In this document: positions 11,537 to 59,124 of the stretch, piece after piece
Layout of the letters: every line of letters starts with the position of its first letter
Numbering within the stretch: position 1 is the stretch's first letter
The notes under the pieces: model-generated
Told to the model about the DNA's origin: nothing
What the model saw: only the letters and a program-made list of their open reading frames with translations
Databases searched by the model: none
Position numbers and translations under genes: made by a program
Assembly (NCBI RefSeq): GCF_006385705.1
Contig: NZ_VFRQ01000016.1
Coordinates: forward strand, 1 to 64,000
Origin: Pontibacter mangrovi
GTDB taxonomy: Bacteria > Bacteroidota > Bacteroidia > Cytophagales > Hymenobacteraceae
Length of the DNA: 64,000 nucleotides
Reading direction: 5' to 3'

Positions 11537-11550
11537 GGTAAATTCGTTGG

Positions 11551-12510: not shown

Positions 12511-12523
12511 ACGATGTGCTTTT

Positions 12524-14260: not shown

Positions 14261-14287
14261 CTTTGTATATGCAGTCATCAGGGTGAA

Positions 14288-17836: not shown

Positions 17837-17921
17837 AAAAGAAGGGGGTTTGGATAAAGGGTATAGTCTGTTAGCAATCAGTTTATACTTGTATTCTTTT
17901 AATGCCTGTCTGGAGCAGTCG

Positions 17922-33172: not shown

Positions 33173-33334
33173 ATTTGGGTCTTTTTAATTGGCTTTAGCT
33201 GTCGCAGGCTATAAAATAATCCCATAATTTAACTATCTTCGCCTAGAACCATACGGCATCGGTTTCAGGTCCGGAGCGCTCATTCCGAAGGCCTGATGGC
33301 AGTGCCAACTTTCATAAAAGCGCCACAAGAATTT

Positions 33335-34099
33335 ATGATTAGCATCGCTGAAAGGCACCAAAAAATCATCAGCAGACTACAGCAGGAGGGAAAAGTAAAC
33401 GTAGCCGACCTTTGCACCGACATGGACGTCTCCTCGGTTACCATCCGCAAAGACCTGAAGCTACTCGAGGACAAAGGCCTCCTGTTCAGAACCCATGGCG
33501 GGGCCACCCTCCATAACCCTTATACCACCGACCGCTCGGTAAACGAGAAAGAAAAAATCCAGTCGGCAGAGAAAATGCTGATCGGGACTGCGGCAGCTAA
33601 ATTGCTGGAGCCAAACGATTCTATTCTTATCGCCTCGGGCACTACCGTGCTGGCGCTGGCCAAGAACATCCAGCCTAAAGGCAGCCTCAGCGTCATCACT
33701 TCTGCCCTGAACGTGGCGCTGGAGCTCATCCGCCACCCCGAGGTGGAGGTCATTCAGCTCGGCGGCCTTGTCCGGAAAAGCTCCTCCTCGGTAACGGGGC
33801 CTTATGCCGAGGGCATTCTGGCTGATTTTTCTTTCAGCAAGCTGTTCCTGGGCGTAGATGGCATCGACATGGAGTTCGGCCTGACCACCACCAACGTGAT
33901 GGAAGCGCACTTAAACCGGCAGATGATCAAGGTGGCGCAGAAAACCATTGTGCTTGCCGACTCCACCAAGTTTGGCAAAAGGGGCTTCGGCAAGATCTGC
34001 GGCTTTGAGGACATCGACCAGATCATCACCGACAAAGGCGTGTCGGACTACGTGGTCAGGACGCTGGAGGGCATGGGCATTAAAGTCACTATCGTCTAA
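33335..34099 (+). CDS. glpR: DeoR/GlpR family transcriptional repressor
   Basis: A 254-residue repressor. The N-terminal winged helix reads I-A-E-R-H-Q-K-I-I, V-N-V-A-D-L, D-V-S-S-V-T-I-R-K-D-L and G-L-L-F-R-T-H-G-G-A, diagnostic for DeoR/GlpR. The C-terminal sugar-phosphate sensor shows D-S-I-L-I-A-S-G-T-T, L-G-V-D-G-I-D and L-A-D-S-T-K-F-G. ATG 33335 gives the canonical M-I-S-I-A-E-R start. It converges on a run of glycerol and glycerophosphodiester genes, so glycerol-3-phosphate is the likely inducer and this run the likely regulon (inference). Confidence 0.88.
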   Translation: MISIAERHQKIISRLQQEGKVNVADLCTDMDVSSVTIRKDLKLLEDKGLLFRTHGGATLHNPYTTDRSVNEKEKIQSAEKMLIGTAAAKLLEPNDSILIASGTTVLALAKNIQPKGSLSVITSALNVALELIRHPEVEVIQLGGLVRKSSSSVTGPYAEGILADFSFSKLFLGVDGIDMEFGLTTTNVMEAHLNRQMIKVAQKTIVLADSTKFGKRGFGKICGFEDIDQIITDKGVSDYVVRTLEGMGIKVTIV

Positions 34100-34101
34100 A
34101 C

Positions 34102-34138
34102 AGCAAGGGCAGGCGCTGTAAAGGCCTGCCCTTGCTTT
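34102..34138. terminator. Bidirectional terminator between glpR and SGNH gene
   Basis: AGCAAGGGCAGGC pairs perfectly with GCCTGCCCTTGCT around a nine-base loop, with T-rich flanks on the plus strand. It separates the convergent glpR gene and the glycerophosphodiester operon end. Confidence 0.75.
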
Positions 34139-34153
34139 CTAACGTATGACATC

Positions 34154-34858
34154 CTATTTGAGGTACTTGCCTTCTTTGAGGATCTCCACCCATTTCTCGT
34201 AGCCCTTGTAGGTCAGGTGCAGCCCGTCGTGGGTATAGGCCTCCACCAGGCGGCCCTCGCTGTCAGCAAAGTGCGGGTGCAGGTCTATCAGGGTTACCTT
34301 CTCGGCAGCCGCCAGCTTTTTCAGCTCATTATTCAGCCAGGCTACATTTTTTTCGCGGTTGTAGTGCCGCTTAAATTTGGTGAAGGTGTTGTTGGTGGGC
34401 AGCATCGTCTGCAGGTATAGCTCCGTGGAAGGCGTCTCTGCCTTAATCCTGCGCACAATCTTCTTATAGTTTTCCAGAATCAGGCTGTCAGGGATGTTCC
34501 GGGAAATATCGTTGATGCCAATAAGCAGGAAAATCTTGTCCGGCTTGCCTTCCGTCACTTCGTCCAGGCGCTCCAGCACGCCATAGGTAATGTCCCCGGA
34601 AATGCCCCGGTTGCGCGCGTGCTTATTTCCCAGCAGCTCGCTCCAGTCGGGGTGGGCCGTAATGCTGTTGCCCAGGAAGATAATGTCTTTGCGTGAGTTG
34701 GGATAGGCGCGGAACTGGTCCACCTGCACCTGGTAAGTAGAAGGCCGATAGGTGCTGTCCCAGGCGGCTTCTTCCTGTGCCAGGGCCGCTTCGGGCAGCA
34801 TCAGCATGCCTGATAACAGGCCCAGTAAGCCCCATCCAATGCGCTTTCGTAACCTCAT
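34154..34858 (-). CDS. SGNH/GDSL hydrolase, secreted
   Basis: A 234-residue secreted esterase with an N-terminal signal ending near A-L-A-Q-E. The four blocks are present: nucleophile Ser in F-L-G-N-S-I-T, Gly in R-G-I-S-G-D, Asn in G-I-N-D-I-S, and Asp-His in T-H-D-G-L-H-L. Relatives include lysophospholipases and acetylhydrolases. As the last gene of a glycerophosphodiester operon it may remove fatty acyl groups from lysophospholipids, an inference from context. The gap to the upstream GDPD gene is 42 bp. Confidence 0.88.
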   Translation of the reverse strand: MRLRKRIGWGLLGLLSGMLMLPEAALAQEEAAWDSTYRPSTYQVQVDQFRAYPNSRKDIIFLGNSITAHPDWSELLGNKHARNRGISGDITYGVLERLDEVTEGKPDKIFLLIGINDISRNIPDSLILENYKKIVRRIKAETPSTELYLQTMLPTNNTFTKFKRHYNREKNVAWLNNELKKLAAAEKVTLIDLHPHFADSEGRLVEAYTHDGLHLTYKGYEKWVEILKEGKYLK

Positions 34859-34900
34859 GTTTATGCTTCTCTTTTTTGTTCTATAAAGTATAAAAACCCG

Positions 34901-35812
34901 CTACTGCGCGTTAAACAGATTCGGGTAATCAGAGATGATGCCATCTACGCCCATGGCCTTCAGGCGGGCGATCTCTTCGGCCGTGTTCACCGTCCAGGGA
35001 ACAACCTTGATGTCGCGGCTGTGGCATTTGTCCACCAGCTCTTTTGTAACGAGCTTGGCGTTGGGGCTATACACAGCAGGGGTAAAGCCGAGCTGGGCGA
35101 TGTTTTCCTCGAAAGAGTCTTTGTTGCTGACCAGCAGGGAGGCCCTGATGTGCGGGTACTGGCGGTGCAGCGCCTGCAGCGCCCTTTTGTCGAAAGACTG
35201 AATGATGACCCAGGGCGTAATCCCCTTCTGCTCCACCACGTCCACTACCTGCGCGGCGAACTTCTCCGGAACAGGGTGCAACTTGCCGTCATGTTCTGCC
35301 TTGGACTTCACCTCGATGTTATAAAATACCTGCGGCAGGTCGTTTTGCTTCAGGTAGGTCTGCACCGAGTCAATCAGGTCAGCTAGCAGCGGAATGTGCG
35401 CCTCCATTTTCTGCTGGTGCGGATACAGTGTATAGGGCTTGGAGCCCACGTCAAAGGCATGCACCCGGTCATAGTCCAGCTGATACACCGCATACTGCTG
35501 GCTTTCTTCTTTTGTGAACTCCTTGCCTTCCGGCGTCAGGGCGTACAGGTGGTTGATGTGCGGGTCATGCGTCACAACGACTTTTCCGTCCTGGGTGATG
35601 TGGCAGTCCATTTCCAGGGTCGTTACCCCCAGCGTCAGGGCATGGAGCATGGCGGGAATGGTGTTCTCCGGCATCAGGCCGCGCCCGCCCCTGTGCGCCT
35701 CGGTATCAAAGGCAGGTAAGGGCACCTGCTTTTCCTGCAATGGCGTCTGACTACTCTTGCAGCCGGCAAAAAGCGTCAGCCCGAGAGCGGCAATACTTAA
35801 AAGCTTCTTCAT
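34901..35812 (-). CDS. Glycerophosphodiester phosphodiesterase
   Basis: A secreted 303-residue lipoprotein-like enzyme (signal T-L-F-A-G-C-K) of the GDPD family, which splits glycerophosphodiesters into glycerol-3-phosphate and an alcohol. Signatures are the catalytic E-A-H-R-G-G, M-P-E-N-T-I-P-A, L-E-M-D-C-H metal ligands, V-T-H-D-P-H and W-T-V-N-T-A with D-G-I-I-S-D-Y-P near the end. It is the pivotal enzyme of the locus, directly upstream of glpT-type uptake in pathway order. The 18-bp gap from the phosphoesterase gene supports one transcript. Confidence 0.95.
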   Translation of the reverse strand: MKKLLSIAALGLTLFAGCKSSQTPLQEKQVPLPAFDTEAHRGGRGLMPENTIPAMLHALTLGVTTLEMDCHITQDGKVVVTHDPHINHLYALTPEGKEFTKEESQQYAVYQLDYDRVHAFDVGSKPYTLYPHQQKMEAHIPLLADLIDSVQTYLKQNDLPQVFYNIEVKSKAEHDGKLHPVPEKFAAQVVDVVEQKGITPWVIIQSFDKRALQALHRQYPHIRASLLVSNKDSFEENIAQLGFTPAVYSPNAKLVTKELVDKCHSRDIKVVPWTVNTAEEIARLKAMGVDGIISDYPNLFNAQ

Positions 35813-35830
35813 CTTGTGGTCATCGATACG

Positions 35831-37252
35831 TTAGGAGATTTCTGTAGAAATCGTCTGGTCATACTTGTTTCCGAAGCGGTCTATGGCTTCCACCCGAACC
35901 GTTTTCATGCCTTCGGCCAGGGAGGTTACAAACAGGTGATCCGTCTCGGTTGGCTCGGCAAAACCCCGCGTCTCGGGCTTGTCCTTGCCCTTGTACAGGG
36001 CAAAGGCCTCCGGGTCATAGGTGACGGTGTTTTTCAACTCGCCCATGGCCTTGCCGTCGGCCCACCAGCTTACCTTCCACTCGGGGTCCCAGTTCCATAC
36101 ATTGGCAAACAACTGCTTCTGGCCCTCATCCTCCACTACGTGCAGGCGCAACTGGTGCTCCTTGCCATAGCCGGTAGACTTGAAGTACCACTTCAGCTCG
36201 TTGCCTTCCACCTCGTACACGCCGTAGCCTCTCGGGGTGCCGTCGCCGCACATCGGGCCCGTCCACCAGGCGCCGCACAGGGTGCCGTGCACGTGCTCAT
36301 ACACATTGTCTTTGATCACGTTGCGGTTATAGTGTGTATGGCCCGACATGATGTGCACTTTGCGCTCAGCCAGGATAGCATAGAGCTCCGCATTGTTCTC
36401 CACGGCATTGTGCACCGGAATATGCAGCCCGATGACAATCAGGTGCTCTTTCGGTACCAGCGCCAGGTCGGCTTTAAGCCAGCTGAGCTGCGCCGGGGTC
36501 AGATGGCCGTCGTAGTTCCGGTCAGTGCCCAGGTAGCGCACGTCATCCAGCACCACGTAGTGCACCTTACCGCGGTTAAAAGAGTAATAGGTAGGGCCGT
36601 AAAGGCGCTGGAACGTATCATCCGACGCCTCATCCCCGCCCTGGTTATAGTCCATGTCGTGGTTGCCCAGCGCCTGGAAAAACGGGATGCCGGTGCCGGC
36701 CACCGCCTTGTCATAATCAGTAAACAGCTCGTGCTTGTCCCATACGATGTCGCCCACGGTCATGCCGTGCACCAAGGTGCCTGCTCCCAGCGACTGCACC
36801 AGCTGCTGCACATCCGGCACGGCCTGGTTGACCATTTGCCGCACATCGCCTTTGGTGCGCACCTGCGGGTCTGCCCATACGATAAAGGTATGGTTGGTGT
36901 CGTCCTGCGTCAGGGGCGTCAGCTCAAAATCATACTTTTCCCGGTCTGCCGTGATCAGGTGATAGTGCCGGGCAATGCCCTTCTCGTGCGGAATGGCGTA
37001 ACCGGCCGGAATAGAAACGAACACAGACGTCGCCTCTGCATGTACAGGCAGCTTAAAGCGGCCTTTCCTGTCGGTCTGCACCACGCTGTAGCCATCCGAC
37101 ACGGCCACATGGGCAAGCCTTTTTCCTGCTGCCCGCACCGTGCCCTTGAGCTTGTTTTTGGCAGGGGTGCCAAACCCGAAGGCTGCGCGGCCGCTGAGCA
37201 CCAGGCCACCTGACAGCAGTAATACATGGTTGATGAAATCTCTTCTCTTCAT
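35831..37252 (-). CDS. Calcineurin-like metallophosphoesterase
   Basis: A 473-residue exported phosphoesterase. The N-terminus has R-R-D-F followed by a hydrophobic stretch, a Tat-like leader. After a beta-sandwich N-domain (about 30-95) the metal site appears: D-P-Q-V, G-D-I-V-W-D, G-N-H-D-M-D-Y-N and G-H-T-H-Y-N-R-N. A C-terminal beta domain follows (Metallophos_C type). Relatives cleave phosphate esters of diverse kinds. Position between the PLD-like and GDPD genes suggests release of phosphate or polyol phosphates from the same substrate. Confidence 0.92.
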   Translation of the reverse strand: MKRRDFINHVLLLSGGLVLSGRAAFGFGTPAKNKLKGTVRAAGKRLAHVAVSDGYSVVQTDRKGRFKLPVHAEATSVFVSIPAGYAIPHEKGIARHYHLITADREKYDFELTPLTQDDTNHTFIVWADPQVRTKGDVRQMVNQAVPDVQQLVQSLGAGTLVHGMTVGDIVWDKHELFTDYDKAVAGTGIPFFQALGNHDMDYNQGGDEASDDTFQRLYGPTYYSFNRGKVHYVVLDDVRYLGTDRNYDGHLTPAQLSWLKADLALVPKEHLIVIGLHIPVHNAVENNAELYAILAERKVHIMSGHTHYNRNVIKDNVYEHVHGTLCGAWWTGPMCGDGTPRGYGVYEVEGNELKWYFKSTGYGKEHQLRLHVVEDEGQKQLFANVWNWDPEWKVSWWADGKAMGELKNTVTYDPEAFALYKGKDKPETRGFAEPTETDHLFVTSLAEGMKTVRVEAIDRFGNKYDQTISTEIS

Positions 37253-37271
37253 AATCGTAAGCGGTTAGGTA

Positions 37272-38474
37272 TTATAAGCCGGGGGCGGCTTTCAGGGCTG
37301 TATAATAAGCGATGTAGTCGTTGTAGAGCGCACTGTTTTTGAGCAGCAGGATGGTCTCGTTGTTGTTGCGGAGCGCATTTAGGGTGAAATTGTGCGAGCC
37401 TGTCACCAGCACCTGCGCCTGCTCGCCCTCCCACTCGCCTTCAATCAGCATAAACTTAGAGTGGATGTTCACCTTTGCCTGCCCTGATTCGGTCATGTTG
37501 TATACTTTCAGGTAGACGCCTTTCTCCTCCAGGGTGCGCAGCCCGCGCAGCACGTCGGCGTCGATGCTGCTTTTCACAACCAGTTCGATGGTGGCGCCCT
37601 GCTCGTGCAGTTCGCCCAGCTTCTCTACCACATTGATGCGCGTGGCTGTCCAGTCTGACATGCCGATGCGGACTGTGGCTGTGGCCGGGTCAGTGATCCT
37701 GTCCAGCAGCTCTATGACGGCGTCTTCCCCGTAAGCTTCGCCATTCTGGCGTTTGGGCAGGAAATAGGCTGAGACACCGGCGGCCTCATCATGGAACTCC
37801 CTGTAAGAGAAATTTTTCATCCCCTGCTTGGCCCCTTTTTTCATGTCTTCCCAATAACTTTTAAAAGCCTGGTAAAGGCCTTCATGGCTCAGCACCACCC
37901 CGTCCTGCATTTTTCGGGTGCCGGAAAGCACAAAGTTATGGGAGGTTTGCAGCACCACATTCGTGGCACTGCCTGCCTGCGTGGTAAGTTTGGAGAAAAG
38001 CACAAATTTATTGTGGTTGATGGCCGTAGCGCTGGCATCGCTGTCTACAATCACCAGGTCGGTGTTCTCGGGTAGTTTTGTTTTCAGTTGATCTATCGTA
38101 TAGGGATTGGTTTTTTGGCTGTCTTCCCGGCTCAGGTCCAGCATCAGGTGCAGCTCCACGCCCCGCGCGGCCGCCCGCTCCAGCGCCTCCACCAGGTCCT
38201 TGTAATCAAACAGGTAAATAGACATGTACAGGGTGGCGTCATCCGGCGTGGCATCTATGAGGGCCACCAGGTTATCCATTATCTCTGTCGAGTAAGACCC
38301 TCCGGCCACGGCGGCAGGGCTTGTAAACATCGCCTGTGGAAAAGTACCCTGGTAGGGCACCAGTTCTGTACTGACTTCTTCTTTCGGCGTTGCCGGGCTG
38401 TCTTCGGACCCGCCGCCACAGGCAGAGACAAAGGCAAGAAGGGAAATGAAAAGGAACGTCTTTAAATAATGCAT
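37272..38474 (-). CDS. Phospholipase D-like lipoprotein
   Basis: A 400-residue lipoprotein (signal F-V-S-A-C-G-G-G) with two PLD-type half domains. The HKD motifs are I-N-H-N-K-F-V-L-F-S and I-H-S-K-F-M-L-I-E: both have His and Lys but carry Ser or Glu where Asp is usual. The His and Lys that carry catalysis are intact, so activity is likely but altered specificity is possible. T-S-H-N-F and S-H-N-F-T-L-N-A follow each repeat. It could hydrolyse phospholipid or polymer phosphodiester bonds at the cell surface before GDPD acts. Confidence 0.88.
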   Translation of the reverse strand: MHYLKTFLFISLLAFVSACGGGSEDSPATPKEEVSTELVPYQGTFPQAMFTSPAAVAGGSYSTEIMDNLVALIDATPDDATLYMSIYLFDYKDLVEALERAAARGVELHLMLDLSREDSQKTNPYTIDQLKTKLPENTDLVIVDSDASATAINHNKFVLFSKLTTQAGSATNVVLQTSHNFVLSGTRKMQDGVVLSHEGLYQAFKSYWEDMKKGAKQGMKNFSYREFHDEAAGVSAYFLPKRQNGEAYGEDAVIELLDRITDPATATVRIGMSDWTATRINVVEKLGELHEQGATIELVVKSSIDADVLRGLRTLEEKGVYLKVYNMTESGQAKVNIHSKFMLIEGEWEGEQAQVLVTGSHNFTLNALRNNNETILLLKNSALYNDYIAYYTALKAAPGL

Positions 38475-38578
38475 AGCAAGAAATTGTGTAAGGCTGCCCC
38501 AGGAAGGCAGCCTTACCTGTTCAACATCAGGCAGGGCTTTTATGCCCTGCCTGCCATATTCACCTTAAACTAAACTGC

Positions 38579-40024
38579 TTAATCTTTTTCCCACCAGCCT
38601 TTGGTGTTGATGTCGTCCCCGCCCATGCGGTTCACGGCTGCTTCGTAGTTGTCGCGGTTGTAGATTTTCACCTCTTCCGGGTAGAGGAAGCGCACTGGCA
38701 CCTGCTGGTCATTTTCCATGGCCGTTGTTTTCGGAAGCACCGGCAGGCCGGTACGGCGGTACTCATACCACTGCTGGTAGTCGTTGAAGACCAGGGCCAG
38801 GTACTTTTGCAGCATGATGCGCTCGAACGTGCCGTCGTAGGCGGCAGCCGGGTTCTCAAAATAGTCTGCCGGTACCTCAGCACCCCACTGCTCGATGGCA
38901 GCCTCTACGCCGGCCTGGTAATGCGCCTGGGCATCGTCGCTGATCACGCCTTTCTGCGCCAGCTCTGCTTTGATGAACTCCACCTCGGCATAGCTCATGA
39001 TCACCGAGATCATCGGAGCAGTCACCAGTTTTGTGTTCATGCCGGAAGGCACGTAATCAAACTGCTGGGCCGGGTCATAGCCGCTCGGCACGCCTTTGTA
39101 GCCCATGGCATTCCCGTCATTGGTCTTGGCCTCGGTATAGAACTTCTCGACCCGCGGGTCGTTCATCTCGTTCAGGTTATCGATAAAGAACTCCGAGCCG
39201 ACGGTGTTGAGGGTAAAGTCGCTGGGACGGCCCCACGGAGACATATTTGGGTCCACACCCGTGATTTGCAGGATAGCAGCCTGGCTATTAGAGGTGAACA
39301 CCGGGCTTTCCTCCGGGTTGTTGATGATGGCGGCCATACGCTCAAACGAGTTCATCTCCGCACGCTTGGACACGCGCAGCAAAAGGCGCAGGCGCAGCGA
39401 GTTAGTGAAGCGCTGCCAGTTGCTGATGTCATTGCCGTACAGCAGGTCCGTACCGTAGGCCATCGGCTGCTCCTCATCGTAGAGGCTATTGGCTTTCTCC
39501 AGGTCCGCCAGCAGGGTTTTATAAATATCCTCCTGCGTGTCAAAGGCCGGTCTCAGGATACCCGCTTCCGCACTCACGGCCTCTCTCATCGGCACGTCCC
39601 CGAAGGCATCGGTCAGGTTCGAATAGATCCAGGCTTTCAGCGTCAGGGCGATGGCCTGGTAGTTTGGCGCCTCGGCCTCAATGGCGGCCTGCTCCATTTC
39701 CTTCACGTTCAGCAGCCAGCGGTAAGAGGCGTTCCAGGTAGAGTTACCGGCCCCTTGGGTGATCACGTAGCGGTGCTCGCCACCGGCAGCACTCGGGAAA
39801 GGCACGCGCACCTGCATGATCTCAAAGGTAAAGGCATTGGCACGGGATGTGCCAAAGGTGCTCATCTCGTAGATAATGGGGTTAAGCAGGGTCCCGGGGT
39901 TGATCTTGTCAACGCGGTTAGGGTCAATGTTAAGCTCCTCCAGGTGGTCGTTGCAGGAAGTGGTGGCCACCCCCATGCAGCTCAAACCCAGGAACAACAA
40001 CAGTATTCGGTTATATTTTGTCAT
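38579..40024 (-). CDS. SusD-like (SusD-like_2 type) outer-membrane lipoprotein
   Basis: A 481-residue lipoprotein with signal V-A-T-T-S-C-N-D-H, followed by the L-N-I-D-P-N-R-V motif of the SusD-like_2 group. Its helical body contains A-Y-A-E-V-E-F-I-K-A-E and L-A-L-V-F-N-D-Y-Q-Q-W-Y-E-Y-R-R-T-G, typical for this class. It should gate and bind substrate above the SusC channel next to it. Being SusD-like_2 rather than classic SusD fits a non-glycan substrate, though not proof. Confidence 0.94.
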   Translation of the reverse strand: MTKYNRILLLFLGLSCMGVATTSCNDHLEELNIDPNRVDKINPGTLLNPIIYEMSTFGTSRANAFTFEIMQVRVPFPSAAGGEHRYVITQGAGNSTWNASYRWLLNVKEMEQAAIEAEAPNYQAIALTLKAWIYSNLTDAFGDVPMREAVSAEAGILRPAFDTQEDIYKTLLADLEKANSLYDEEQPMAYGTDLLYGNDISNWQRFTNSLRLRLLLRVSKRAEMNSFERMAAIINNPEESPVFTSNSQAAILQITGVDPNMSPWGRPSDFTLNTVGSEFFIDNLNEMNDPRVEKFYTEAKTNDGNAMGYKGVPSGYDPAQQFDYVPSGMNTKLVTAPMISVIMSYAEVEFIKAELAQKGVISDDAQAHYQAGVEAAIEQWGAEVPADYFENPAAAYDGTFERIMLQKYLALVFNDYQQWYEYRRTGLPVLPKTTAMENDQQVPVRFLYPEEVKIYNRDNYEAAVNRMGGDDINTKGWWEKD

Positions 40025-40108
40025 GGCTTTCTTCTGGTAAAGGCCGCCGGCAGTAAGTGTTATACTTGCCGGCAGCGTTTATACTTTATAATTTCGTTTG
40101 TGCCGTTA

Positions 40109-43100
40109 TTAGAACTGCAGTTTCACGTTCAGGCCAAATGTTCTTGGCGTTGGCAACTGGCCCATTTCCACACCTGGCATCTGCACGTTACCATTCAGGG
40201 CGGAAGCCTCCGGATCAAACATCGGGAAGTTGGTGATCATGGCCAGGTCACGGCCATACAGCGCCAGGCTTGCTCCCTGCAGGAAGTCTACACGGCTCAG
40301 GATAGCTTTGGGCAGGTTATACTCCAGGCGCACCTCGCGCAGCTTCAGGTAAGAGGCGTCAAATGAGTTGGCCTCCACGTTGGCACGGCGGTAGTACTCT
40401 TTGTAGTAAGCGGCCAGGTTCTCCACTTTCTCCTCGTTTGGAGAGTAAGTGCCGTCGCCGTTGTCTACCACGCCGTCGCCAATGATATAGCCTTCTTCAC
40501 GGCCGCGCAGCGTGTGCTCCAGCTTGCCCTGCTCACTCATCTTGTGGTGTGTCTGCGAGTACACCATCCCGCCGTACTGTCCGTCCACCAAGGCGCTGAA
40601 GCGGAAGTTCTTGTAGGTTACCTCGTTCAGGAAGCCGCCTCTCCAATCGGCATAGGCATTGCCGCGGTAAGAGATTTCTTTTGGACGGATAGGCAGGCCA
40701 TCTTCGTAAATGATCTCCCCGGCCTCGTTGCGCACAAAGCCGTAGCCGTACATATCACCGGTAGAACCGCCCTTTTTGGCGATGATATAGGCGTTACCGC
40801 CCTGCGCCAGGATATACTCCTCGTCCTCCTCAAAGCCTTCTGACAGCTCCAGGATCTCGTTGTCGTTTTTAGACCAGGTAATGGTGGTATTCCACTTGAA
40901 GTTCTCAGTTTCAATCGGGCGACCTGTCAAGGACAGCTCCACGCCCCTGTTCTGCACTCTACCTGCATTGATGATGGCGTCGTTGTAGCCCGTGGTCGGG
41001 TCCAGCTGGATAGCCAGGATCTGGTTATCCGTCACGGTCTGGTAGATTGCCAAGTCCATGCCCAAACGGCCGCCGAAGAGCTGGTACTCCAGGCCTGCTT
41101 CGTAGCTGCGGGTATTCTCCGGCATAAAGTCCGGGTTAAAGCGCGTAGTCGGGATAGAAGCCGAGCCTGGGAAATAGCTTGAGTTGTAGTATTTACGGGT
41201 CAGGTAAGGGTTCGAGTCCGATCCTACTTCTGCCACAGAAAGCCGCAGCTTGGCGTAAGATACCTGGCGCGGCAGCGTGAACAGGTCACTCAGGATAAAG
41301 CTGGTGCTGATAGAGGGGTAAAAGAACGAGTTGTTTTTTACCGGCAACGCGGAGCTCCAGTCGTTACGCGCCGTCACATCCACAAAGATCTTGTCCAGGT
41401 AAGAAAGGGAGGCCAGGCCATACACACTTTCTACTTCTCTGTTGTAGCGGCGGTTATTCGTCATGATCGGGTTGATGCCGTTAGACAGCGTATAGGTTCC
41501 CGCCACGTTCAGGCCCTCAATGGAGGCATTGGTTCTGTTCAGGTAGGATTTCATGATGTTGCCACCCACCGATGCCCTGAAGTCAAAGTCACTGGAGAAC
41601 TTGTCTTTGTAGGTCAACAAAAAGTCGGTATTCGTCTCCCTGTCGTTGATGTTCTGCTCTTTATAGTAGCCTTTGCTGAAGTTCTTGGTATCCCATGGCC
41701 GGCGCGTCGTGCGCTCCTCGTTCGTCATGTCTATGGCGGCCCGCACCATCAAGTCAAATTTAGAGGATAGCTCATAATTGGCCGTGAGGTTACCGGTGGT
41801 ATTGTAGCTATCCACGCCATTAAGCATCTCGTAGGCAATCAAGTAGGGGTTGTCTATGTACGAGCTGAAGGGATGGATCTGTGAGATCTGCTCCTGCCCT
41901 TTTTGCCATCTTGGCTTATACCAGGCCAAATCTACGTTCGGGTTCTGAAAGATCATGAAGTAAGAGATCGACTGGTTGTTATAGCCTGTGGCCGGCAGGT
42001 TGTCGCTGTGCTTGTGCGAGAAGTTGATCTTTGAGGTCAATCTAAGCCTGTTGGTTAGTTTCTGGTTCACGCTCAGGGCTGTGTTCAGGCGCTCAAAGCC
42101 CGTATTAGGCATGATCCACTCGTTTTTGGTATGCGTAATGGAGGCACGCGCCGAGCCGTTCTCACCACCGCCTTCCACAGCCACGCTGTTTGCCACCGTG
42201 TGGCCGGTACGGAAGAAGCCCTTTACGTTGTCTTTGTAGGGTCTCCACAACTGGCGCTCTGCTGACTGGCCTTCCAGCGTCGGGTCATACTGGTAGAAGT
42301 ACTGCCCGTCGAACTTCGGGCCGAAAGCACTACTGGTGCTACCCGTGTTGGAACCGTCCTCGGACGCCCCGTAAGAATAGTACAGCTCGCCGTCCTTGTT
42401 TCTATAGTTGTTGCCCTGGCCATACTCATACTGCATGTCCGGCCACTTCAGGATGTCGTTAAAACTGATGTTGGAGTTGACCGTCACGCCAAGCCCTTTG
42501 CGCTTGCGCCCGGATTTGGTGGTGATGATCAGGGCGCCGTTCGCGGCACGGTAGCCATACAGGGCAGCCGCCGCAGCACCTTTCAGCACCGTCACAGACT
42601 CAATGTCGTCGGGGTTGATGTCGGCGATGCCGTTACCAAAGTCGATCGGCACATCGCTGCCCGAGCCGGCCTGGTAGGCATTGCCCACCCCGGAGCTCTC
42701 CATGCCGCTGTTCATCGGCACGCCGTCCAGGATGATGAGCGCCTTGTTTTTGGTTGGGTCGAGCGAGTTATCGCCGCGCAGCTTGATCACGGAAGAGTTC
42801 AGCGGGCCGCCGCCGGTAGGCGTCAGGCTAAGGCCTGCTACCTTGCCCGACAGGGCGCTGGCAAAGTTGTTGGAGCGGGCCGCGCTGATTTCCTCCCCGG
42901 TTACCTCCGTCACAGCATATCCCAGTGCTTTTTTCTCCCGCTCGATGCCGAGCGCGGTTACCACTACCTCCGAGAGCTGCTGGTTGTCTATCTGCAGTTC
43001 CACGGCCAGGTTCGTTTGCGGCTGGTTCACCGTCACGCTGCCCGCCTTGTAGCCGATGAACGTGAAAGACAGCACAGCGCCTTTTTCTACGTTCAACTCA

Positions 43101-43357
43101 AACTTGCCGTCCTGGTTAGTCACGCCGATGGGCTTTCCATTGGCGGCAATGGAAACACCTGGCAAGGGAATGCCATCGTTTTTGTCCGTCACGGTTCCGC
43201 TTACGGCAACCTGCTCGCCCTGGGCAAGCTTTTCAGACAGGGGAGCTGCCGACAGCTCAGCTAGGCTTGGCCCTGCCAAACAGAGGCACAGGGAGAGCAT
43301 GGCTGCCCGGCTGATCCTGTGCCTACCTTTTGGGGATAGTGGTAGATTTTTTTTCAT
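40109..43357 (-). CDS. SusC/RagA TonB-dependent transporter
   Basis: A 1082-residue outer-membrane channel. It has a signal peptide, a carboxypeptidase-like domain (V-S-G-T-V-T-D-K-N-D-G), a plug with S-E-V-V-V-T-A-L-G-I-E-R and the L-R-G-D-N-S-L segment, and a barrel ending in L-N-V-K-L-Q-F with terminal Phe. There is no STN domain, so it is not signalling through FecR. It lies 16 bp downstream of glpT, tying outer-membrane import of the substrate to inner-membrane uptake of glycerol-3-phosphate. Confidence 0.95.
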   Translation of the reverse strand: MKKNLPLSPKGRHRISRAAMLSLCLCLAGPSLAELSAAPLSEKLAQGEQVAVSGTVTDKNDGIPLPGVSIAANGKPIGVTNQDGKFELNVEKGAVLSFTFIGYKAGSVTVNQPQTNLAVELQIDNQQLSEVVVTALGIEREKKALGYAVTEVTGEEISAARSNNFASALSGKVAGLSLTPTGGGPLNSSVIKLRGDNSLDPTKNKALIILDGVPMNSGMESSGVGNAYQAGSGSDVPIDFGNGIADINPDDIESVTVLKGAAAAALYGYRAANGALIITTKSGRKRKGLGVTVNSNISFNDILKWPDMQYEYGQGNNYRNKDGELYYSYGASEDGSNTGSTSSAFGPKFDGQYFYQYDPTLEGQSAERQLWRPYKDNVKGFFRTGHTVANSVAVEGGGENGSARASITHTKNEWIMPNTGFERLNTALSVNQKLTNRLRLTSKINFSHKHSDNLPATGYNNQSISYFMIFQNPNVDLAWYKPRWQKGQEQISQIHPFSSYIDNPYLIAYEMLNGVDSYNTTGNLTANYELSSKFDLMVRAAIDMTNEERTTRRPWDTKNFSKGYYKEQNINDRETNTDFLLTYKDKFSSDFDFRASVGGNIMKSYLNRTNASIEGLNVAGTYTLSNGINPIMTNNRRYNREVESVYGLASLSYLDKIFVDVTARNDWSSALPVKNNSFFYPSISTSFILSDLFTLPRQVSYAKLRLSVAEVGSDSNPYLTRKYYNSSYFPGSASIPTTRFNPDFMPENTRSYEAGLEYQLFGGRLGMDLAIYQTVTDNQILAIQLDPTTGYNDAIINAGRVQNRGVELSLTGRPIETENFKWNTTITWSKNDNEILELSEGFEEDEEYILAQGGNAYIIAKKGGSTGDMYGYGFVRNEAGEIIYEDGLPIRPKEISYRGNAYADWRGGFLNEVTYKNFRFSALVDGQYGGMVYSQTHHKMSEQGKLEHTLRGREEGYIIGDGVVDNGDGTYSPNEEKVENLAAYYKEYYRRANVEANSFDASYLKLREVRLEYNLPKAILSRVDFLQGASLALYGRDLAMITNFPMFDPEASALNGNVQMPGVEMGQLPTPRTFGLNVKLQF

Positions 43358-43373
43358 TTGATAAAGAGCTTAA

Positions 43374-44717
43374 TTAGGTGATCTTATTTAGGTTGTAATG
43401 TTTCGTTTCTTTGTTCCAGGTGAGGGCCGTGAAGAAAATCGCCAGCACGCAGGCCGCAACCAGCACGATAAAGCCCCCGTCCCAGCCCCAGGCATCCACC
43501 ACAAAGCCCATCGCGATGTTGGCAAACAGGGCACCGCCCATGTAGCCGAACAGGCCGGTGAGGCCCGCCGCGGTACCGGCCGCCTTCTTAGGGACCAGGT
43601 CCAGCGCCTGCACGCCAATCAGCATCACCGGCCCGTAGATCAGGAAGCCAATGGCGATCAGGGCCGCGTTATCCACCCAGATGTTTCCGGCAGGGTTCTT
43701 CCAGTATACCAGCACGGCCACCAGCACCAGCACCATGTAAATGATGGTGGCAGGGGCACGGCGCCCACGGAACACCTTATCGCTGATCCAACCGCAAAGC
43801 AGGGTGCCCGGAATGCCGGCGTACTCATAGGCAAAATAGGCCCAGCCGGTCTCTTTCACCGAGAAGCCTTTGGCCTCTTCCAGGTAAGTAGGCGCCCAGT
43901 CCAGGATGCCGTAGCGCACCAGGTACACAAAGGCATTGGCAAAGGCAATATACCAGAGCACGCGGCTGGTGAGCACGTAGTCAAACAGGATCTGCTTGGC
44001 CGATAGCTCCTTCTCGTGGTCCTCGGTATAATTGCTCGGGTAGTCGTTTTTATACTCTTCGATCGTGGGCAGGCCACAGGACTGCGGCGTGTCGCGCACC
44101 AGCATGTAGGCAATCATGGCCGAGAGCACCGCGATCAGGCCCGGAAAGTATAACTTACTCTCCCAGGTGCCAAACAGGGCAACCGCGGCAATGGCAAGCG
44201 GCCCCACCAGTCCGCCGCCCACGTTGTGGGCAATGTTCCAGATCGACATTTTGGTGCCACGCTCCTTGGTGGAGAACCAGTGCACCATCACCCGGCCACA
44301 GGGAGGCCATCCCATTCCCTGGAACCAACCGTTGAGGAAAAGCAGGGTAAACATAATGGCGATAGAGCTGGTGGCGATGGGAAACACACCCATGCCGATC
44401 ATGGTAAGGGCCGAGAGCAACAGCCCCAGGCTCAGAAATATCCGGGCATTGCTTCTGTCGGACACGTTGCCCATCAAAAATTTACTGAGCCCGTAAGCCA
44501 CCGACACGCCGGATAGGGCAATGCCGAGGTCAGATTTGGAGTAGCCTTGCTCGATCAGGTCAGGCATGACGAGCGAGAAGTTCTTTCGGACCAGGTAATA
44601 GCCAGCATACCCGATAAAAATGCCCAGAAACACTTGTAGTCGCAAGCGTTTGTACTCGGGGTCTATCCGCTCTAGCGGCAGGCGTTCGGCATGCTGTGCA
44701 GGTGAGATAAGTTTCAT
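43374..44717 (-). CDS. glpT: Organophosphate:phosphate antiporter, GlpT type
   Basis: A 447-residue MFS inner-membrane transporter with 12 predicted helices. [12 protein letters not shown] near residue 40 is the hallmark of the OPA family, and [15 protein letters not shown] lies near 130 with the phosphate-binding Arg. [11 protein letters not shown] and Y-E-Y-A-G-I-P-G-T are shared with GlpT/UhpT. Neighbourhood with glpK, glpD and GDPD points to glycerol-3-phosphate as the substrate. Confidence 0.92.
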
Positions 44718-44900
44718 AAAATTCGTAAATATACTTCCGTCAGGTGTTTCCTATGAAGAAAGCGGGTTGGCGCGCCTTGATTCGTTTTAGCTGCCCCACG
44801 CTTTTTCGATTTATTTTGCTTCGTTTCACAGTTCATCAGATTCGCTGACCGAACGCAAAACTAAAAAACTATATAGAAAGGCACCGGCTTCCGCAGAAGC

Positions 44901-45632
44901 TTAACCTTTTAGTAATATAAAGAGCCCTGCCGCCACTGCTGCGCCTGCCACGGGGCCTACCAGCGGCACCCAGGCATACGACCAGTCGCTGTGGCACTTG
45001 TTTTTGATGGGCATGAGGGCATGTACCAGCCGGGGGCCCAGGTCGCGGGCCGGGTTGATGGCATAGCCTGTGGTGCCGCCCAGTGACAGGCCAATGGCCC
45101 ATACCAGAAACGCCACCGGAATAGCGCCCAGCGAGCCCATCCCGATCGGGGTTTTCTCATTTCCCAGCTCCGGGTTGGTAAAATAAAATATCACAAAAAT
45201 CAGCACAAAGGTGCCCAGCGCCTCGCTGAAGACGTTGGAGGCCCGGTGCCGGATGGCAGGGCCCGTACAAAAGCAGGCCAGCTTTGCCTCCCCGTCTTCC
45301 GTGGCATCGAAGTGCGGCCTGTACATGAGCCATACCAGCAGGGCGCCGGTCATAGCCCCGAGCATCTGCGCCAGGATATAGCTGCCCACCCCCTCCCAGC
45401 CAAACTTGCCGGCCAAGGCCAGGGCCAGCGTGACGGCCGGGTTCAGGTGCGCCCCGCTGTAGGGCCCGGCAATCACCACGCCGCTGAAAACCGACAGGGC
45501 CCAGCCCGTGGTAATGACAATCCAGCCACCATTGCTGCCCTTGGTACCTTTGAGCACCACGTTGGCCACCACCCCGTTGCCTAACAGGATCAGGAGCATG
45601 GTACCGATGAATTCTGCTGTAAACGCTGACAT
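44901..45632 (-). CDS. glpF: Glycerol facilitator (aquaporin family)
   Basis: A 243-residue MIP channel with six membrane segments and the two selectivity boxes S-G-A-H-L-N-P-A-V-T and Y-A-I-N-P-A-R-D-L-G-P-R. The N-P-A-R-D form with Gly-Pro-Arg marks glycerol-conducting GlpF rather than water-only aquaporins. It follows glpK by 31 bp and completes a glycerol uptake-phosphorylation-oxidation set. Export direction of glycerol is also possible. Confidence 0.94.
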   Translation of the reverse strand: MSAFTAEFIGTMLLILLGNGVVANVVLKGTKGSNGGWIVITTGWALSVFSGVVIAGPYSGAHLNPAVTLALALAGKFGWEGVGSYILAQMLGAMTGALLVWLMYRPHFDATEDGEAKLACFCTGPAIRHRASNVFSEALGTFVLIFVIFYFTNPELGNEKTPIGMGSLGAIPVAFLVWAIGLSLGGTTGYAINPARDLGPRLVHALMPIKNKCHSDWSYAWVPLVGPVAGAAVAAGLFILLKG

Positions 45633-45663
45633 CGCTTTTCTTTATCTTTCGCTTTTAGATTGA

Positions 45664-47148
45664 CTATACCCAGGCTTTTGCCGCCTTTACTGCTTTGTGC
45701 CAGCCTTGCAGCAGGTCCTCTGCCGGCAGGTTTTCATCCGGCTCAAAGCGCCTGCTGACGCTCCATTGCTGTTGTATATCCTCCACGCTGTTCCAGAAGC
45801 CCGTCGCCAGGCCGGCCAGGTAGGCTGCCCCAATGGCCGTTACTTCCGTTACCTCGGGTTTTACCACGCTTGCCCCCAGGATGTCTGCCTGAAACTGCAT
45901 GAGCAGGTCATTGGCCGTTGCCCCGCCGTCGGCGCGCAGTTCTTTGATGGTAATGCCCGCGTCCGCTTCCATGGCTTTGAGCACCTCATAGGTCTGGTAG
46001 GCAATACTTTCCAAAGCGGCCCGGGCAATGTGTGCGCTCGTCGTGCCCCTGGTCATGCCCACCATGGTGCCGCGGGCGTGCTGGTCCCAGTGCGGGGCGC
46101 CCATGCCTACAAAAGCAGGCACCAGGTATACCCCGTCGCTGCCTTCTACCCGGCGGGCCAGCTGCTCTACCTCGGCCGAGGAAGAGATGATGCCCAGCCC
46201 ATCGCGCAGCCACTGCACCACAGCGCCGGCAATAAAGATGCTTCCCTCCAGGGCGTAGTGCACCTGTCCGTTTAGCTTCCAGGCAATGGTGGTCACCAGC
46301 CTGTGCTGCGAGACGATCGGTGTCTGGCCGATGTTCATGAGCATGAAGCAGCCGGTGCCGTAGGTATTCTTGACCATACCCGGCTTGGTGCACATCTGCC
46401 CGAAAAGGGCTGCCTGCTGGTCGCCGGCAATGCCTGCAATGGGAATTTGCGTGGAGAAAAGGGAGCCGGAAGTATGGGCTACGACCTCGCTGGAGGCTTT
46501 GACGTCCGGTAAAAGGCTGGCAGGGATATCGAAAAGGGCAAGTAGCTCCTCATCCCAGGACAGGGTATGGATATTATAAAGCAGGGTGCGGGAGGCATTG
46601 GTGACATCCGTCACGTGGGTTTTGCCGTCCGTCATCTTCCAGATAAGCCAGGTGTCGATCGTGCCGAAGGCCAAATGGCCGGCCTGGGCCTTTTCCCTGG
46701 CGCCGGGCACATTGTCCAGGATCCACCTGATCTTGGTGGCCGAGAAGTAGGCATCGATCACCAGCCCTGTCTTCTCCCGGATCAGCTGCTCGTGCCCCTG
46801 CTCCTTTAAACTGTCGCAGTAAGCTGAGGTGCGGCGGTCCTGCCAGACAATGGCCTGGTGCACCACTTTGCCCGTGCGCCGGTCCCACACCACGGTGGTC
46901 TCGCGCTGGTTGGTAATGCCGATCGCCTGCACATCCCGGGCCTGCAGCCCTGCTTTTAAAATGGCCTCGGCCGCCACGCCAATCTGCGTGGACCATATCT
47001 CGTTCGGGTCGTGCTCAACCCAGCCGGGCTGCGGGTAATATTGCTTGAACTCCTTCTGGGCGATGGCCTTGATGCCGCCCTGCTGGTCAAAAACAATGGC
47101 CCTGGAACTGGTGGTACCCTGATCAAAAGCAAGTATATATTTCTGCAT
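45664..47148 (-). CDS. glpK: Glycerol kinase
   Basis: A 494-residue FGGY-family kinase that phosphorylates glycerol to glycerol-3-phosphate. Recognition elements are F-D-Q-G-T-T-S-S-R at the N-terminus, G-W-V-E-H-D-P near residue 45, [11 protein letters not shown] and the C-terminal [11 protein letters not shown]. Full length. Twelve bp downstream of glpD, 31 bp before glpF. Confidence 0.97.
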
Positions 47149-47160
47149 AGACGCTGGTTT

Positions 47161-48801
47161 TTAAGCCTGGTTTACTGTTTCGGTGGCCTCCTTCCGGTAA
47201 GGCTCGAGCAGGTAATGGTTGGCAAGGGCCGTGAACTCTGCTACCTGCCGCTGCTGCCATGCTGTGTCCATCCCGAGCTCCGTGGCCATCAGCTGCGCCA
47301 CCTTCGGAGCCATGTCGATGGCTGCCCTGGCGTTGAGGAACAACACCCGCAACCTCCTGGCCAGCACATCCTCCACGGTGCGGGCCATTTCGTTTCGAAC
47401 GGCCCACACGACCTCTGCCTGCAGGTGCGGCATGCCCTGGTGCAGCTTTTGACCGAGGGCGGGATGAGAAGAAAGAAGGGCCGTGATGCCGTCTGCATCC
47501 GTTCCATAGATTTTCAGAACCTCTAATATATTATTTTTTTCGTTTCCTGCCCCATGTATTTTCAGTTCGGCAGTGTTACAGGGGTGCACCGGCAGCCCCG
47601 CCACCGTGATGGCCTTGTCCATCGTGTCCTCGGCCATCTTGCGGTAAGTTGTCCATTTACCACCTGTTATGGTCACCAGCCCCGATGGGGAAACGATCAG
47701 CTTGTGGCTTCTGGAGATCTCTTTTGTGCTGCCTGCATTTTTGGTGGGCGCTGCCAGCGGACGCAGTCCGGCAAAAACGCTTAGCACGTCTTGGCGTGTC
47801 GGTTTCTTTTCCAGGTACTGCCCGGCCGTCTCCAGGATAAAGTCGATCTCGCTTTCCAGCGCCGTCGGCTCCAGGCTCGGGTCGTTCAGGGGCGTATCGG
47901 TTGTGCCCAGCAGCACATGCCCGTGCCACGGCACGGCAAAAAGCACGCGCCCGTCCGGCGTTTTGGGGAGCATGAGCGCGTTCTGGCCTTTCAGAAAAGA
48001 CTGATCGAGCACCACGTGCACGCCCTGGCTTGGCCGTACCAGCGGCTTTTCGCCGGGCCTGTCCATTTGCAGCACATCGTTCACAAACACGCCCGTGGCG
48101 TTGATCACCACCTTGGCCGGCAGGTCATAGCTGCGGCCGCTTTCCAGGTCCTGGGCCTGCACCCCGGCGATCTGCCCGCCCTCTTTTTTCAGCAGGCCCG
48201 TCACTTTCATGTAGTTGAGCACCACGCCGCCCTGCTCTGCGCAGGTCTGGGCCATGTTCACGGCCAGGCGGGCATCGTCAAACTGCCCGTCGTAGTACTC
48301 AATGCCGCCTACCAAGCCGCTTTTTTTAACGTTTGGCAACAGGCGACTCACTTTTTTCCTGCTCAGCAGGGTGGTCTTGTGTATCCGGTAACGGCCCGCC
48401 ATCCAATCGTATACTTTCAGGCCCACGCCATAAAACATCTTGTTCCACAGGCTGTAGCTCGGAATCACAAAAGACTGCAAACGCACCAGGTGCGGCGCGT
48501 TCTGAATGAGCAGCCCCCGCTCGTGCAGGGCCTCGTACACCAGGCTGATGTCGCCCTGCGCCAGATAGCGCACGCCGCCGTGCACCAGCTTGGTGCTCCT
48601 GCTCGAGGTGCCTTTCGCAAAGTCCGCCTGCTCGAGCAGCAGCGTGCGGTATCCCCTGGAAGCTGCATCCACGGCAACACCTAATCCCGTTGCGCCGCCT
48701 CCTATCACCACTACATCCCATACCTGGTTCTCCTGCTCCAGCGCCTGCAGTTGTGCCGGACGGCTAAACGGAAACCCAGTATATTTCTTTTCGTTTCCCA
48801 A
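47161..48801 (-). CDS. glpD: Glycerol-3-phosphate dehydrogenase (FAD)
   Basis: A 546-residue membrane-associated flavoprotein that oxidises glycerol-3-phosphate to dihydroxyacetone phosphate. The FAD-binding site is D-V-V-V-I-G-G-G-A-T-G-L-G (about 29-41); T-S-S-R-S-T-K-L-V-H-G-G-V-R-Y-L is the family signature. The only start after the upstream in-frame stop is TTG at 48801; no ATG is available. It heads the glp run and has an inverted repeat just upstream (separate entry). Confidence 0.96.
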   Translation of the reverse strand: MGNEKKYTGFPFSRPAQLQALEQENQVWDVVVIGGGATGLGVAVDAASRGYRTLLLEQADFAKGTSSRSTKLVHGGVRYLAQGDISLVYEALHERGLLIQNAPHLVRLQSFVIPSYSLWNKMFYGVGLKVYDWMAGRYRIHKTTLLSRKKVSRLLPNVKKSGLVGGIEYYDGQFDDARLAVNMAQTCAEQGGVVLNYMKVTGLLKKEGGQIAGVQAQDLESGRSYDLPAKVVINATGVFVNDVLQMDRPGEKPLVRPSQGVHVVLDQSFLKGQNALMLPKTPDGRVLFAVPWHGHVLLGTTDTPLNDPSLEPTALESEIDFILETAGQYLEKKPTRQDVLSVFAGLRPLAAPTKNAGSTKEISRSHKLIVSPSGLVTITGGKWTTYRKMAEDTMDKAITVAGLPVHPCNTAELKIHGAGNEKNNILEVLKIYGTDADGITALLSSHPALGQKLHQGMPHLQAEVVWAVRNEMARTVEDVLARRLRVLFLNARAAIDMAPKVAQLMATELGMDTAWQQRQVAEFTALANHYLLEPYRKEATETVNQA

Positions 48802-49130
48802 AACGTATTTAAGTTTACTTTTTTATTTTTTATACTTTCGAATATAAAAGTAAACGAAACAAAACAACAATCAAACAAAACTCACCATTTTTTCTATATA
48901 AAAAGTGATTCAGCACTAACCGGTTAGAATTCAGCCCTAAAGCCTGTAAAACCACCTTCCGCCAAACGGAAGCCCTGGTACCGCTTTATTAAAACTGCCA
49001 GCACTCGTCGCTCACCCCTTCTAAGGAAACCCCGGGCAAGCATGCCGCAGGCAAATCGGAGGCGCCCTGAGCACGCGTTTTTTCACAGAAATGCTTATCA
49101 TTGTTTTCTGATCTTTCACAAAACGAAACC
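48802..49130. other. Divergent glpD / M14 peptidase intergenic region
   Basis: About 330 bp, very A+T-rich next to glpD. Repeats resembling AAACGAAA occur near 48851-48860 and 49121-49128. Besides the inverted repeat listed separately, no gene is seen. Confidence 0.4.
48813..48855 (-). promoter_or_regulatory. Inverted repeat upstream of glpD, candidate operator
   Basis: GTTTACTTTT (48813-48822) and AAAAGTAAAC (48846-48855) form a perfect 10-bp inverted repeat with a 23-base A+T-rich spacer containing TTCGAA. It lies 12-54 bp upstream of the glpD TTG start, so it probably overlaps the promoter. GlpR is the obvious candidate binder, by context only. Confidence 0.4.
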
Positions 49131-52564: not shown

Positions 52565-52579
52565 CATTAAGCTGATAGC

Positions 52580-54023: not shown

Positions 54024-54053
54024 CTTTGAATGGTTCTTCTTTGAATGGTTCTT
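54024..54053. repeat. 15-bp perfect tandem duplication at the tnpA 5-prime end
   Basis: CTTTGAATGGTTCTT occurs twice in a row. It adds five codons in frame to the tnpA reading frame and lies in the divergent tnpA/tnpB spacer. It may have arisen by slippage. Confidence 0.8.
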
Positions 54054-54142
54054 CGAGTGGCAGCCTGTTTCCGTGCAACAAGCTAAGATATACCTTACAG
54101 GAGATATATTGTTTTTGTAAGGAAACGTATATTTGTGTAGCT

Positions 54143-59123: not shown

Positions 59124-59124
59124 G

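Follow-up and report, generated by a model that had tools for sequence, protein, structure and literature searches.

A glp operon with an exchangeable SusCD pair in Pontibacter mangrovi, a candidate locus for scavenging glycerol-phosphodiesters

Introduction

The enterobacterial glp regulon comprises GlpT, GlpQ, GlpF, GlpK, GlpD and GlpR. Here we describe a cluster of eleven genes in a 64,000-nucleotide stretch of Pontibacter mangrovi DNA (contig NZ_VFRQ01000016.1, positions 1 to 64,000; hereafter the window), in which a SusC-type outer-membrane transporter and a SusD-type surface lipoprotein (SusCD), a pairing usually linked to sugars, are embedded among genes of this kind. Like the glp regulon, the window has GlpT, GlpK, a MIP channel and GlpD, together with a putatively exported glycerophosphodiester phosphodiesterase (GDPD) and a DeoR-family regulator. 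Unlike the regulon, these genes form a single cluster with SusCD, a second phosphoesterase, a phospholipase D (PLD)-fold protein and an esterase, and the regulator is AgaR-like.

The PusCD clusters of Flavobacterium likewise combine SusCD with phosphodiesterases; they are induced by phosphate depletion, and lipid headgroups and nucleic acids are their proposed ligands (PMC8115612). The likeness lies in a SusCD pair adjoining genes for exported phosphodiesterases, judged here by family from the sequence and by eye for export. In contrast to the window, the Flavobacterium PUSI has PF00149 and PF16670 enzymes and is controlled by inorganic phosphate (Pi) starvation, and glpT and GDPD go unmentioned in the main text of PMC8115612 (see also PMC8812569). 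The window SusD is not of the PusD1 domain type; since PusD is described as polyphyletic in that paper, it could belong to another Pus type.

With polysaccharide utilization loci (PULs) the window shares SusC and SusD, a surface lipoprotein, dedicated exported enzymes and a regulator. It differs in that Pfam identified neither glycoside hydrolases nor lyases in the eleven genes, which disfavors a glycan PUL. A GDPD gene appears within a starch-type PUL map in PMC9131120. In an iron-stimulon table of Bacteroides thetaiotaomicron, BT4724-25 (a TonB-dependent receptor and SusD) lie near the GDPD-family gene BT4727 in locus-tag order, with no glp genes shown in the table rows (PMC10434189). An earlier note on this DNA held that SusCD loci for phosphate substrates are little described; PusCD is such a published case, and a version wired to glp genes did not turn up. 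No such locus was recognized in our literature searches, in which most matching papers were judged by their listing alone, and no paper matched Pontibacter, glycerol-3-phosphate and SusD together.

Results

Conservation of the cassette

The gene families, order, strands and spacings given in the earlier note were all borne out by open reading frame (ORF) coordinates and by Pfam and NCBIfam searches (Table 1). Ten genes run on the minus strand in the order glpD-glpK-glpF-glpT-SusC-SusD-PLD-metallophosphoesterase (MPE)-GDPD-SGNH, and the regulator gene lies tail-to-tail with them on the plus strand. The nine intergenic gaps, recomputed from the ORF coordinates, are 12, 31, 183, 16, 84, 104, 19, 18 and 42 bp.

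GlpT is rare in Bacteroidota, being present in 9 of 395 sampled genomes with the window's own included. It is carried by 16 of the 50 genomes in the genus and by 23 of the 204 in the family, the remaining seven all belonging to one sister genus. SusC directly follows GlpT in every one of these 23 family carriers, and the gap between them measures 15-120 bp in the 22 other than the window (22/22). The rest of the cassette order is kept in the 22 relatives wherever the fetched stretch extends, with certain exceptions: six have no glpK or glpF, one has no PLD gene (L170; L-numbers denote fetched loci and G-numbers genomes), four have an extra GDPD, a DUF5689 gene or one oxidoreductase gene is inserted in some (in L073, at 4283-5671, a GFO/IDH/MocA oxidoreductase gene stands between DUF5689 and PLD), and in the sister genus the regulator sits at the glpD end. 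The stretches fetched for L176-L182, among others, stop at 20 kb, before the cassette does, and gaps there in MPE, GDPD, SGNH or regulator are uninformative.

The arrangement is not due to chance, as it recurs with these variations in 22 further genomes of the family. The eleven-gene cluster is a real, conserved operon, and its genes are probably co-regulated. The earlier note had grouped SusCD with the glp and GDPD genes as one unit and proposed a check of their linkage in relatives; that linkage, conserved in 23/23 GlpT carriers of the family, supports the grouping and counters the view that SusCD is independent of the glp genes. Six Pontibacter genomes keep glpT-SusCD-glpD without glpK in the cassette, and no glycerol kinase was detected in them at E 1e-60, a combination that points to imported glycerol-3-phosphate. 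Among named loci, the nearest SusC proteins are those of P. litorisediminis, P. flavimaris and P. anaerobius (89-90% identity). The nearest solved relative of the pair is BT_2263/BT_2264 (for SusC, BT_2264, 5fq6, E 8.6e-107).

Exchange of SusCD within the cassette

Trees of GlpT and of GlpD both unite the window with G012, G013, G014, G020, G021, G023, G454 and G462 in one clade (support 100/98 and 100/99). The SusC proteins of these nine cassettes do not group together in the SusC tree. Window-type SusC (five genomes) and SusC of the G013/G454 type cluster with proteins from separate SusCD-MPE loci (100), while SusC of G462 joins the sister genus (99) and that of G020 stands alone on a long branch. 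Forcing the nine SusC together made the tree 925 log-likelihood units worse (approximately unbiased test, p 2.7e-5, quick tree), the nine-member group having been taken from the GlpT and GlpD trees after the SusC trees had also been viewed. The window and G462 are 95% identical in GlpT, 75% in GlpD, 70% in MPE, 51% in SusC and 42% in SusD; the corresponding values for the window and G012 are 95%, 81%, 68%, 90% and 90%. These trees indicate that SusC has no one common origin across the nine backbone-clade cassettes and that SusCD has been swapped within a conserved cassette, the pair forming an exchangeable module.

In a 99-row tree, window-type SusC falls in a 24-row set (99) made up almost entirely of SusCD-MPE loci and cassettes of the family, and its exact position differs between trees. 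There is no call to assume that the window type was copied in more than once, as a single origin with the G013/G454 type was not rejected (p 0.26). A DUF5689 lipoprotein gene follows SusD in seven sister-genus cassettes and in eight Pontibacter ones, which makes SusC-SusD-DUF5689 the probable ancestral module; window-type cassettes have no DUF5689 gene in this position. DUF5689 was not a tally query for L052-L095, though seen there, and its assignment (PF18942) comes from a Pfam run on the L073 copy. Divergent SusCD-type alleles, with horizontal transfer proposed, have been described for Porphyromonas gingivalis RagAB, a system for protein and peptide uptake (PMC11817032); the exchange described here differs in sitting inside a glp operon, across species of one genus.

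The regulator and a candidate operator

The earlier note named the regulator a GlpR repressor. The protein does face the operon and belongs to the DeoR family, but by model it is not a GlpR equivalog. Its best NCBIfam match is AgaR, at 259.8 bits just short of the cut-off of 260, and it reaches 111 bits of the 331 needed for the DeoR/GlpR model NF008154 (PRK10906, the enterobacterial GlpR), and 186 of 300 for the haloarchaeal GlpR model NF041397. Both scores are under the cut-offs, and "GlpR" describes a role that we infer from gene context.

A candidate operator, TTTCGTTT-n10-TCGAAA, lies upstream of glpD. The pattern TTTCGTTTN{6,16}TCGAAA has this site as its single exact match in the 4.88 Mb genome; the bipartite pattern read backwards, as a control, gave two chance matches. 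The window has nine copies of the half-site TTTCGTTT against 1.71 +/- 1.44 expected, a count reached by 0/100 shuffles, and 7/9 fall at 40.1-49.1 kb, one of them in the SusC-SusD gap. Up to 300 bp upstream of glpD it is present in 18 of 22 relatives and in the window (19/23 cassettes), and it stands upstream of SusC in all four Pedobacter loci that bear the regulator (L117, L143, L153 and L156). Pontibacter and Pedobacter belong to different orders. Because the candidate half-site is common to Pontibacter (at glpD) and Pedobacter (at SusC) with this regulator, SusCD probably belongs to its regulon. The half-site was found once in 160 regions upstream of other cassette genes, a control that is mostly coding sequence and unmatched in composition. 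Better controls are the regions upstream of SusC in Pontibacter SusCD-MPE loci without glp genes (0/15) and in other Bacteroidota loci (8/55, five Sphingobacterium loci included).

The putatively exported enzymes

Single-sequence searches against solved structures gave no match for either the MPE or the PLD-fold protein, and profile and fold comparisons were needed for both. The AlphaFold2 model of the latter (pLDDT 95.5) has a two-domain PLD fold; the nearest PDB entry is phospholipase D 7e0m (E 2.3e-17), with PLD3/PLD4 next. Both halves carry HxK motifs (HNKFVLFS and HSKFMLIE; HxKx4S and HxKx4E), and Cys19, His154, Lys156, His338 and Lys340 are invariant in 63 aligned sequences. The window's own copy is the sole match in the 395-genome phylum sample at E 1e-60. 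A protein database holds 126 relatives, of which the 120 listed include Rufibacter, Adhaeribacter, Arcticibacter, Pedobacter and Chitinophaga. In Saccharicrinis aurantiacus (L155), a distant SusCD is preceded by a GDPD and followed by three consecutive PLD-like proteins.

By sequence and fold comparison, the MPE core resembles the glycerophosphodiesterase GpdQ, which is its closest match by VIA-align at 19% identity. The dimetal ligand set of GpdQ is D-x-H, GD, GNHD, H and GHxH; in the MPE, D128, D168, N197, H277, H305 and H307 are invariant (68 sequences), and Q130 replaces the first His. Unlike GpdQ of Enterobacter aerogenes, the MPE has extra N- and C-terminal domains and an apparent export signal. 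The GDPD has all of the motifs HRG...PEN, E-x-D and HD, with 3ch0 as its nearest solved relative (E 9.5e-65). In the Pontibacter cassettes L053, L055, L056 and L172, another GDPD, sharing 46-48% identity with that of the window, lies past SGNH on the regulator side. For the SGNH esterase, the nearest solved relatives are 6njc ("sialate O-acetylesterase / lysophospholipase L1") and 7pzg (E about 1e-52).

SusCD relatives elsewhere in Bacteroidota

Eight further genomes of the phylum sample carry GlpT. Two of them (G179 and G415; L088 and L089) have SusCD in a cluster with GlpT, in G179 in the order GlpK-GlpF-GDPD-SusC-SusD-MPE-GDPD-GlpT-SGNH. In the other six GDPD is near GlpT (weak matches in two), and no SusCD was seen within 20 kb. 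Five loci with GlpT and no SusCD (L090, L091, L093, L094 and L095) have in common two large genes upstream of GDPD. Scans of one copy from L090 and one from L094 showed Laminin_G_3, lamin-tail and secretion-sorting domains. L090, L091, L093 and L094 also have a third gene, which is weakly PPIase-like.

A SusC-only search of named genomes yielded 74 loci. MPE and/or GDPD lies no more than 9 kb away, on the strand of SusC, for 41 of the 58 SusC scoring at least 1100 bits, a set with near-identical pairs (39/55 without L147, L152 and L158); in the same tally, MPE, GDPD, glp genes and regulator are each 0/14 around the 14 less related SusC. The bands follow score: L072 and L170 are in the upper one though trees set them apart, and L138/L139 and L155 are below it. 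The MPE tally includes copies 27-32% identical to the window's, with MetallophosN/C domains checked in one (L127). Duplicates of L052-L054 (L096, L097 and L145) were excluded from trees and counts, and all locus counts are unweighted for kinship.

Of these 58 related loci, 3 have glp genes and 6 the regulator. Parapedobacter lycopersici (L114) has regulator-GlpD-GlpK-GlpF-SusC-SusD, Pedobacter sp. V48 has regulator-GlpD-SusC-SusD-MPE-GDPD-SGNH, three further Pedobacter have regulator-SusC-SusD-MPE-GDPD, one of them also with SGNH, and a Pseudobacter metagenome-assembled genome (L154) has regulator-GlpD-SusC-SusD-GlpK-GlpF-GDPD. A phospholipase C gene follows the related SusD in Sphingobacterium L122/L125 (PF04185 and PF05506, Pfam on the L125 copy). 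Outside the cassette, Pontibacter SusCD of this kind have MPE adjoining in 15/15 fetched loci. Linkage to glp genes is a particular case in a broader family of SusCD-MPE loci.

Discussion

We consider it likely that this is a nutrient-scavenging operon under DeoR-type control, in which an exchangeable SusCD imports a soluble glycerol-phosphodiester. Gene families and order, their conservation, the common operator-like site and the incongruent SusCD trees are observed; the enzyme activities, cell locations, ligand and inducer in the scheme that follows are what we infer. SusD and SusC would capture a soluble glycerol-phosphodiester bigger than glycerol-3-phosphate and import it across the outer membrane, candidates being deacylated phospholipid fragments, related glycerophosphodiesters and possibly short poly-glycerolphosphate. 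The PLD-fold lipoprotein would work at the cell surface, and a periplasmic GpdQ-like MPE, the GDPD and the SGNH esterase would break the ligand down into glycerol-3-phosphate and glycerol. The former would be taken in by GlpT, the latter by GlpF and phosphorylated by GlpK, and GlpD would oxidize glycerol-3-phosphate to dihydroxyacetone phosphate. Glycerol-3-phosphate, or a phosphorylated compound like it, is the probable signal for the regulator. The earlier note proposed a phosphodiester substrate for SusCD; a glycerol-phosphodiester is most likely, whether phospholipid headgroup, lysophospholipid or teichoic polymer. A bolder and rather doubtful extension is a locus for using teichoic acid or polyglycerolphosphate: that the SusCD clade imports glycerolphosphate oligomers, that pair swapping re-tunes the diet of polymers or diesters while the glp core is kept, and that the cassette answers to glycerol-3-phosphate and not to phosphate. 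If the scavenging model is true, SusCD feeding extends beyond sugars, peptides and phosphate scavenging to glycerol-phosphodiesters as carbon, with an outer-membrane importer tied to the classic glp pathway. The cassettes would also provide a natural experiment, as close relatives have the same enzymes and different SusCD, and comparing the pairs would reveal ligand specificity.

Several observations weigh against this model. The strict 8-mer TTTCGTTT is missing from the region upstream of glpD in L056, L172, L180 and L181, from the Pseudobacter locus L154 and from the region upstream of SusC in the Parapedobacter locus L114, and it precedes the regulator gene in only 6/16 cassettes. Where the earlier note spoke of a PLD-like lipoprotein, the fold and the lipoprotein-like signal agree, but the canonical HxKx4D motif does not, as neither half has the HKD aspartate. 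Foldseek ranked the cyclic-nucleotide phosphodiesterase Rv0805 over GpdQ for the MPE, whose first metal motif is D-x-Q against D-x-H in GpdQ, and the SGNH enzyme may be a carbohydrate esterase, judging from a sialate O-acetylesterase as its nearest solved relative. Among the 58 related SusC loci, 52 have neither glp genes nor regulator and 17 neither phosphodiesterase within 9 kb, and a FecR gene directly precedes SusC in 27/61 named loci (in L127 the ECF sigma and FecR domains were confirmed). Because of these many relatives and the FecR genes, the ligand of the SusCD clade may be wider than glycerol esters.

The main rival to a swap is an old tandem duplication followed by differential loss. 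It would accommodate the unstable placement of window-type SusC between trees, and in Sphingobacterium L124, L148 and L149 the two SusCD types occur together within a single locus; we nevertheless think it unlikely, as no family cassette holds both types (0/23) and the position of window-type SusC within the 24-row family set fits a later copy-in. That SusCD is a passenger with an unrelated ligand, merely having the promoter in common, strikes us as very unlikely. Such a passenger could be exchanged between cassettes with the enzymes unchanged, as is seen, the 17 related pairs without a nearby phosphodiesterase are in keeping with it, and so is the nearest solved relative, BT_2263/BT_2264, which is not known to be a phosphodiester transporter. 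It fits poorly with a SusCD pair beside GlpT in 23/23 cases, with the 15/15 Pontibacter pairs that adjoin MPE outside the cassette, and with the Pedobacter half-site TTTCGTTT, which stands upstream of SusC itself.

Other rivals concern the ligand and its use. SusCD pairs usually import oligomers, which counts for a reading in which glycerolphosphate polymer fragments of teichoic acid are imported from Gram-positive neighbors: the MPE would cut internally, the GDPD would free terminal glycerol-3-phosphate, and the SGNH esterase would remove D-alanyl or other esters. The set of calcineurin-type enzyme, GDPD and esterase parallels Bacillus PhoD/GlpQ, and since GlpQ cleaves wall teichoic acid as an exo-acting sn-glycerol-3-phosphodiesterase (PMC7086022), the reading is chemically plausible. 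It seems improbable all the same: no gene is specific to teichoic acid, Pfam finds no peptidoglycan-cleaving enzyme or glycosidase among the eleven genes, and the Sphingobacterium neighbor of a related SusD is a phospholipase C. Literature searches joining SusCD or TonB-dependent uptake with teichoic acid returned no paper, bar one gut-colonization review. Less probable again is phosphate scavenging of the PusCD kind under Pi starvation, with carbon use secondary. The Flavobacterium precedent, SusCD with phosphodiesterases, is strongly induced by Pi depletion (PMC8115612). Here, however, the operon is bound to glpD, glpK and glpF and to a DeoR regulator, and a candidate operator precedes it; phosphate transporter and PhoB/PhoR genes are absent among the eleven by Pfam, Pho boxes not having been searched for; and PusD1 is PF07980/PF14322, whereas the window SusD is PF12771, with PF14322 at 26.3 bits, below its cut-off of 27, and PF07980 not among its matches.

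Features of the locus and its surroundings

Table 1. Genes and candidate sites of the cassette in the window. Signal peptides were read by eye from the translations.
Feature	Coordinates	Strand	Basis
glpD, FAD-dependent glycerol-3-phosphate dehydrogenase, first gene of the operon	47161..48801	-	PF01266 194 bits, PF16901 91 bits
glpK, glycerol kinase	45664..47148	-	TIGR01311 739.8 bits, cut-off 590.4
glpF-like aquaglyceroporin, MIP family	44901..45632	-	PF00230 149 bits
glpT, glycerol-3-phosphate transporter	43374..44717	-	TIGR00712 738 bits, cut-off 632.6
SusC-type TonB-dependent outer-membrane transporter	40109..43357	-	TIGR04056 607 bits, cut-off 368
SusD-type surface lipoprotein (SusD-like_2)	38579..40024	-	PF12771 461 bits, cut-off 27; lipoprotein-like signal by eye
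PLD-fold lipoprotein	37272..38474	-	PF13091 PLDc_2; lipoprotein-like signal by eye
Metallophosphoesterase (MPE), MetallophosN/MetallophosC domains	35831..37252	-	PF16370/PF16371; Tat-like signal (RRDF) by eye
GDPD, glycerophosphodiester phosphodiesterase	34901..35812	-	PF03009 131 bits, cut-off 23.6; lipoprotein-like signal by eye
SGNH/GDSL esterase	34154..34858	-	PF13472 111 bits; ordinary signal peptide by eye
DeoR-family regulator, AgaR-like	33296..34099	+	PF08220 and PF00455; AgaR model 259.8 bits
Candidate operator TTTCGTTT-n10-TCGAAA, upstream of glpD	48836..48859	-	pattern search
Further TTTCGTTT half-site, SusC-SusD gap	40092..40099	+	8-mer search

Elsewhere in the window, a PUL-like cluster at 9854-19226 contains a second SusD (PF07980), an adjoining 1224-aa ORF and FecR, and it adjoins a xylose-isomerase-like TIM barrel and a beta-helix protein. 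At 8511-9824, one protein matches both a DUF218 domain and a hemopexin repeat, a combination that we judge unusual. AbiEii-type nucleotidyltransferases (PF08843) are encoded at 51860-53647 and 58389-59850, next to DUF6577 and DUF6088 genes, respectively; these two pairs, close together, are possible type IV toxin-antitoxin or abortive-infection modules. Between them, at 54026-55276, lies a gene for an IS605 OrfB/TnpB-like protein with a Cas12f1-like TNB domain.

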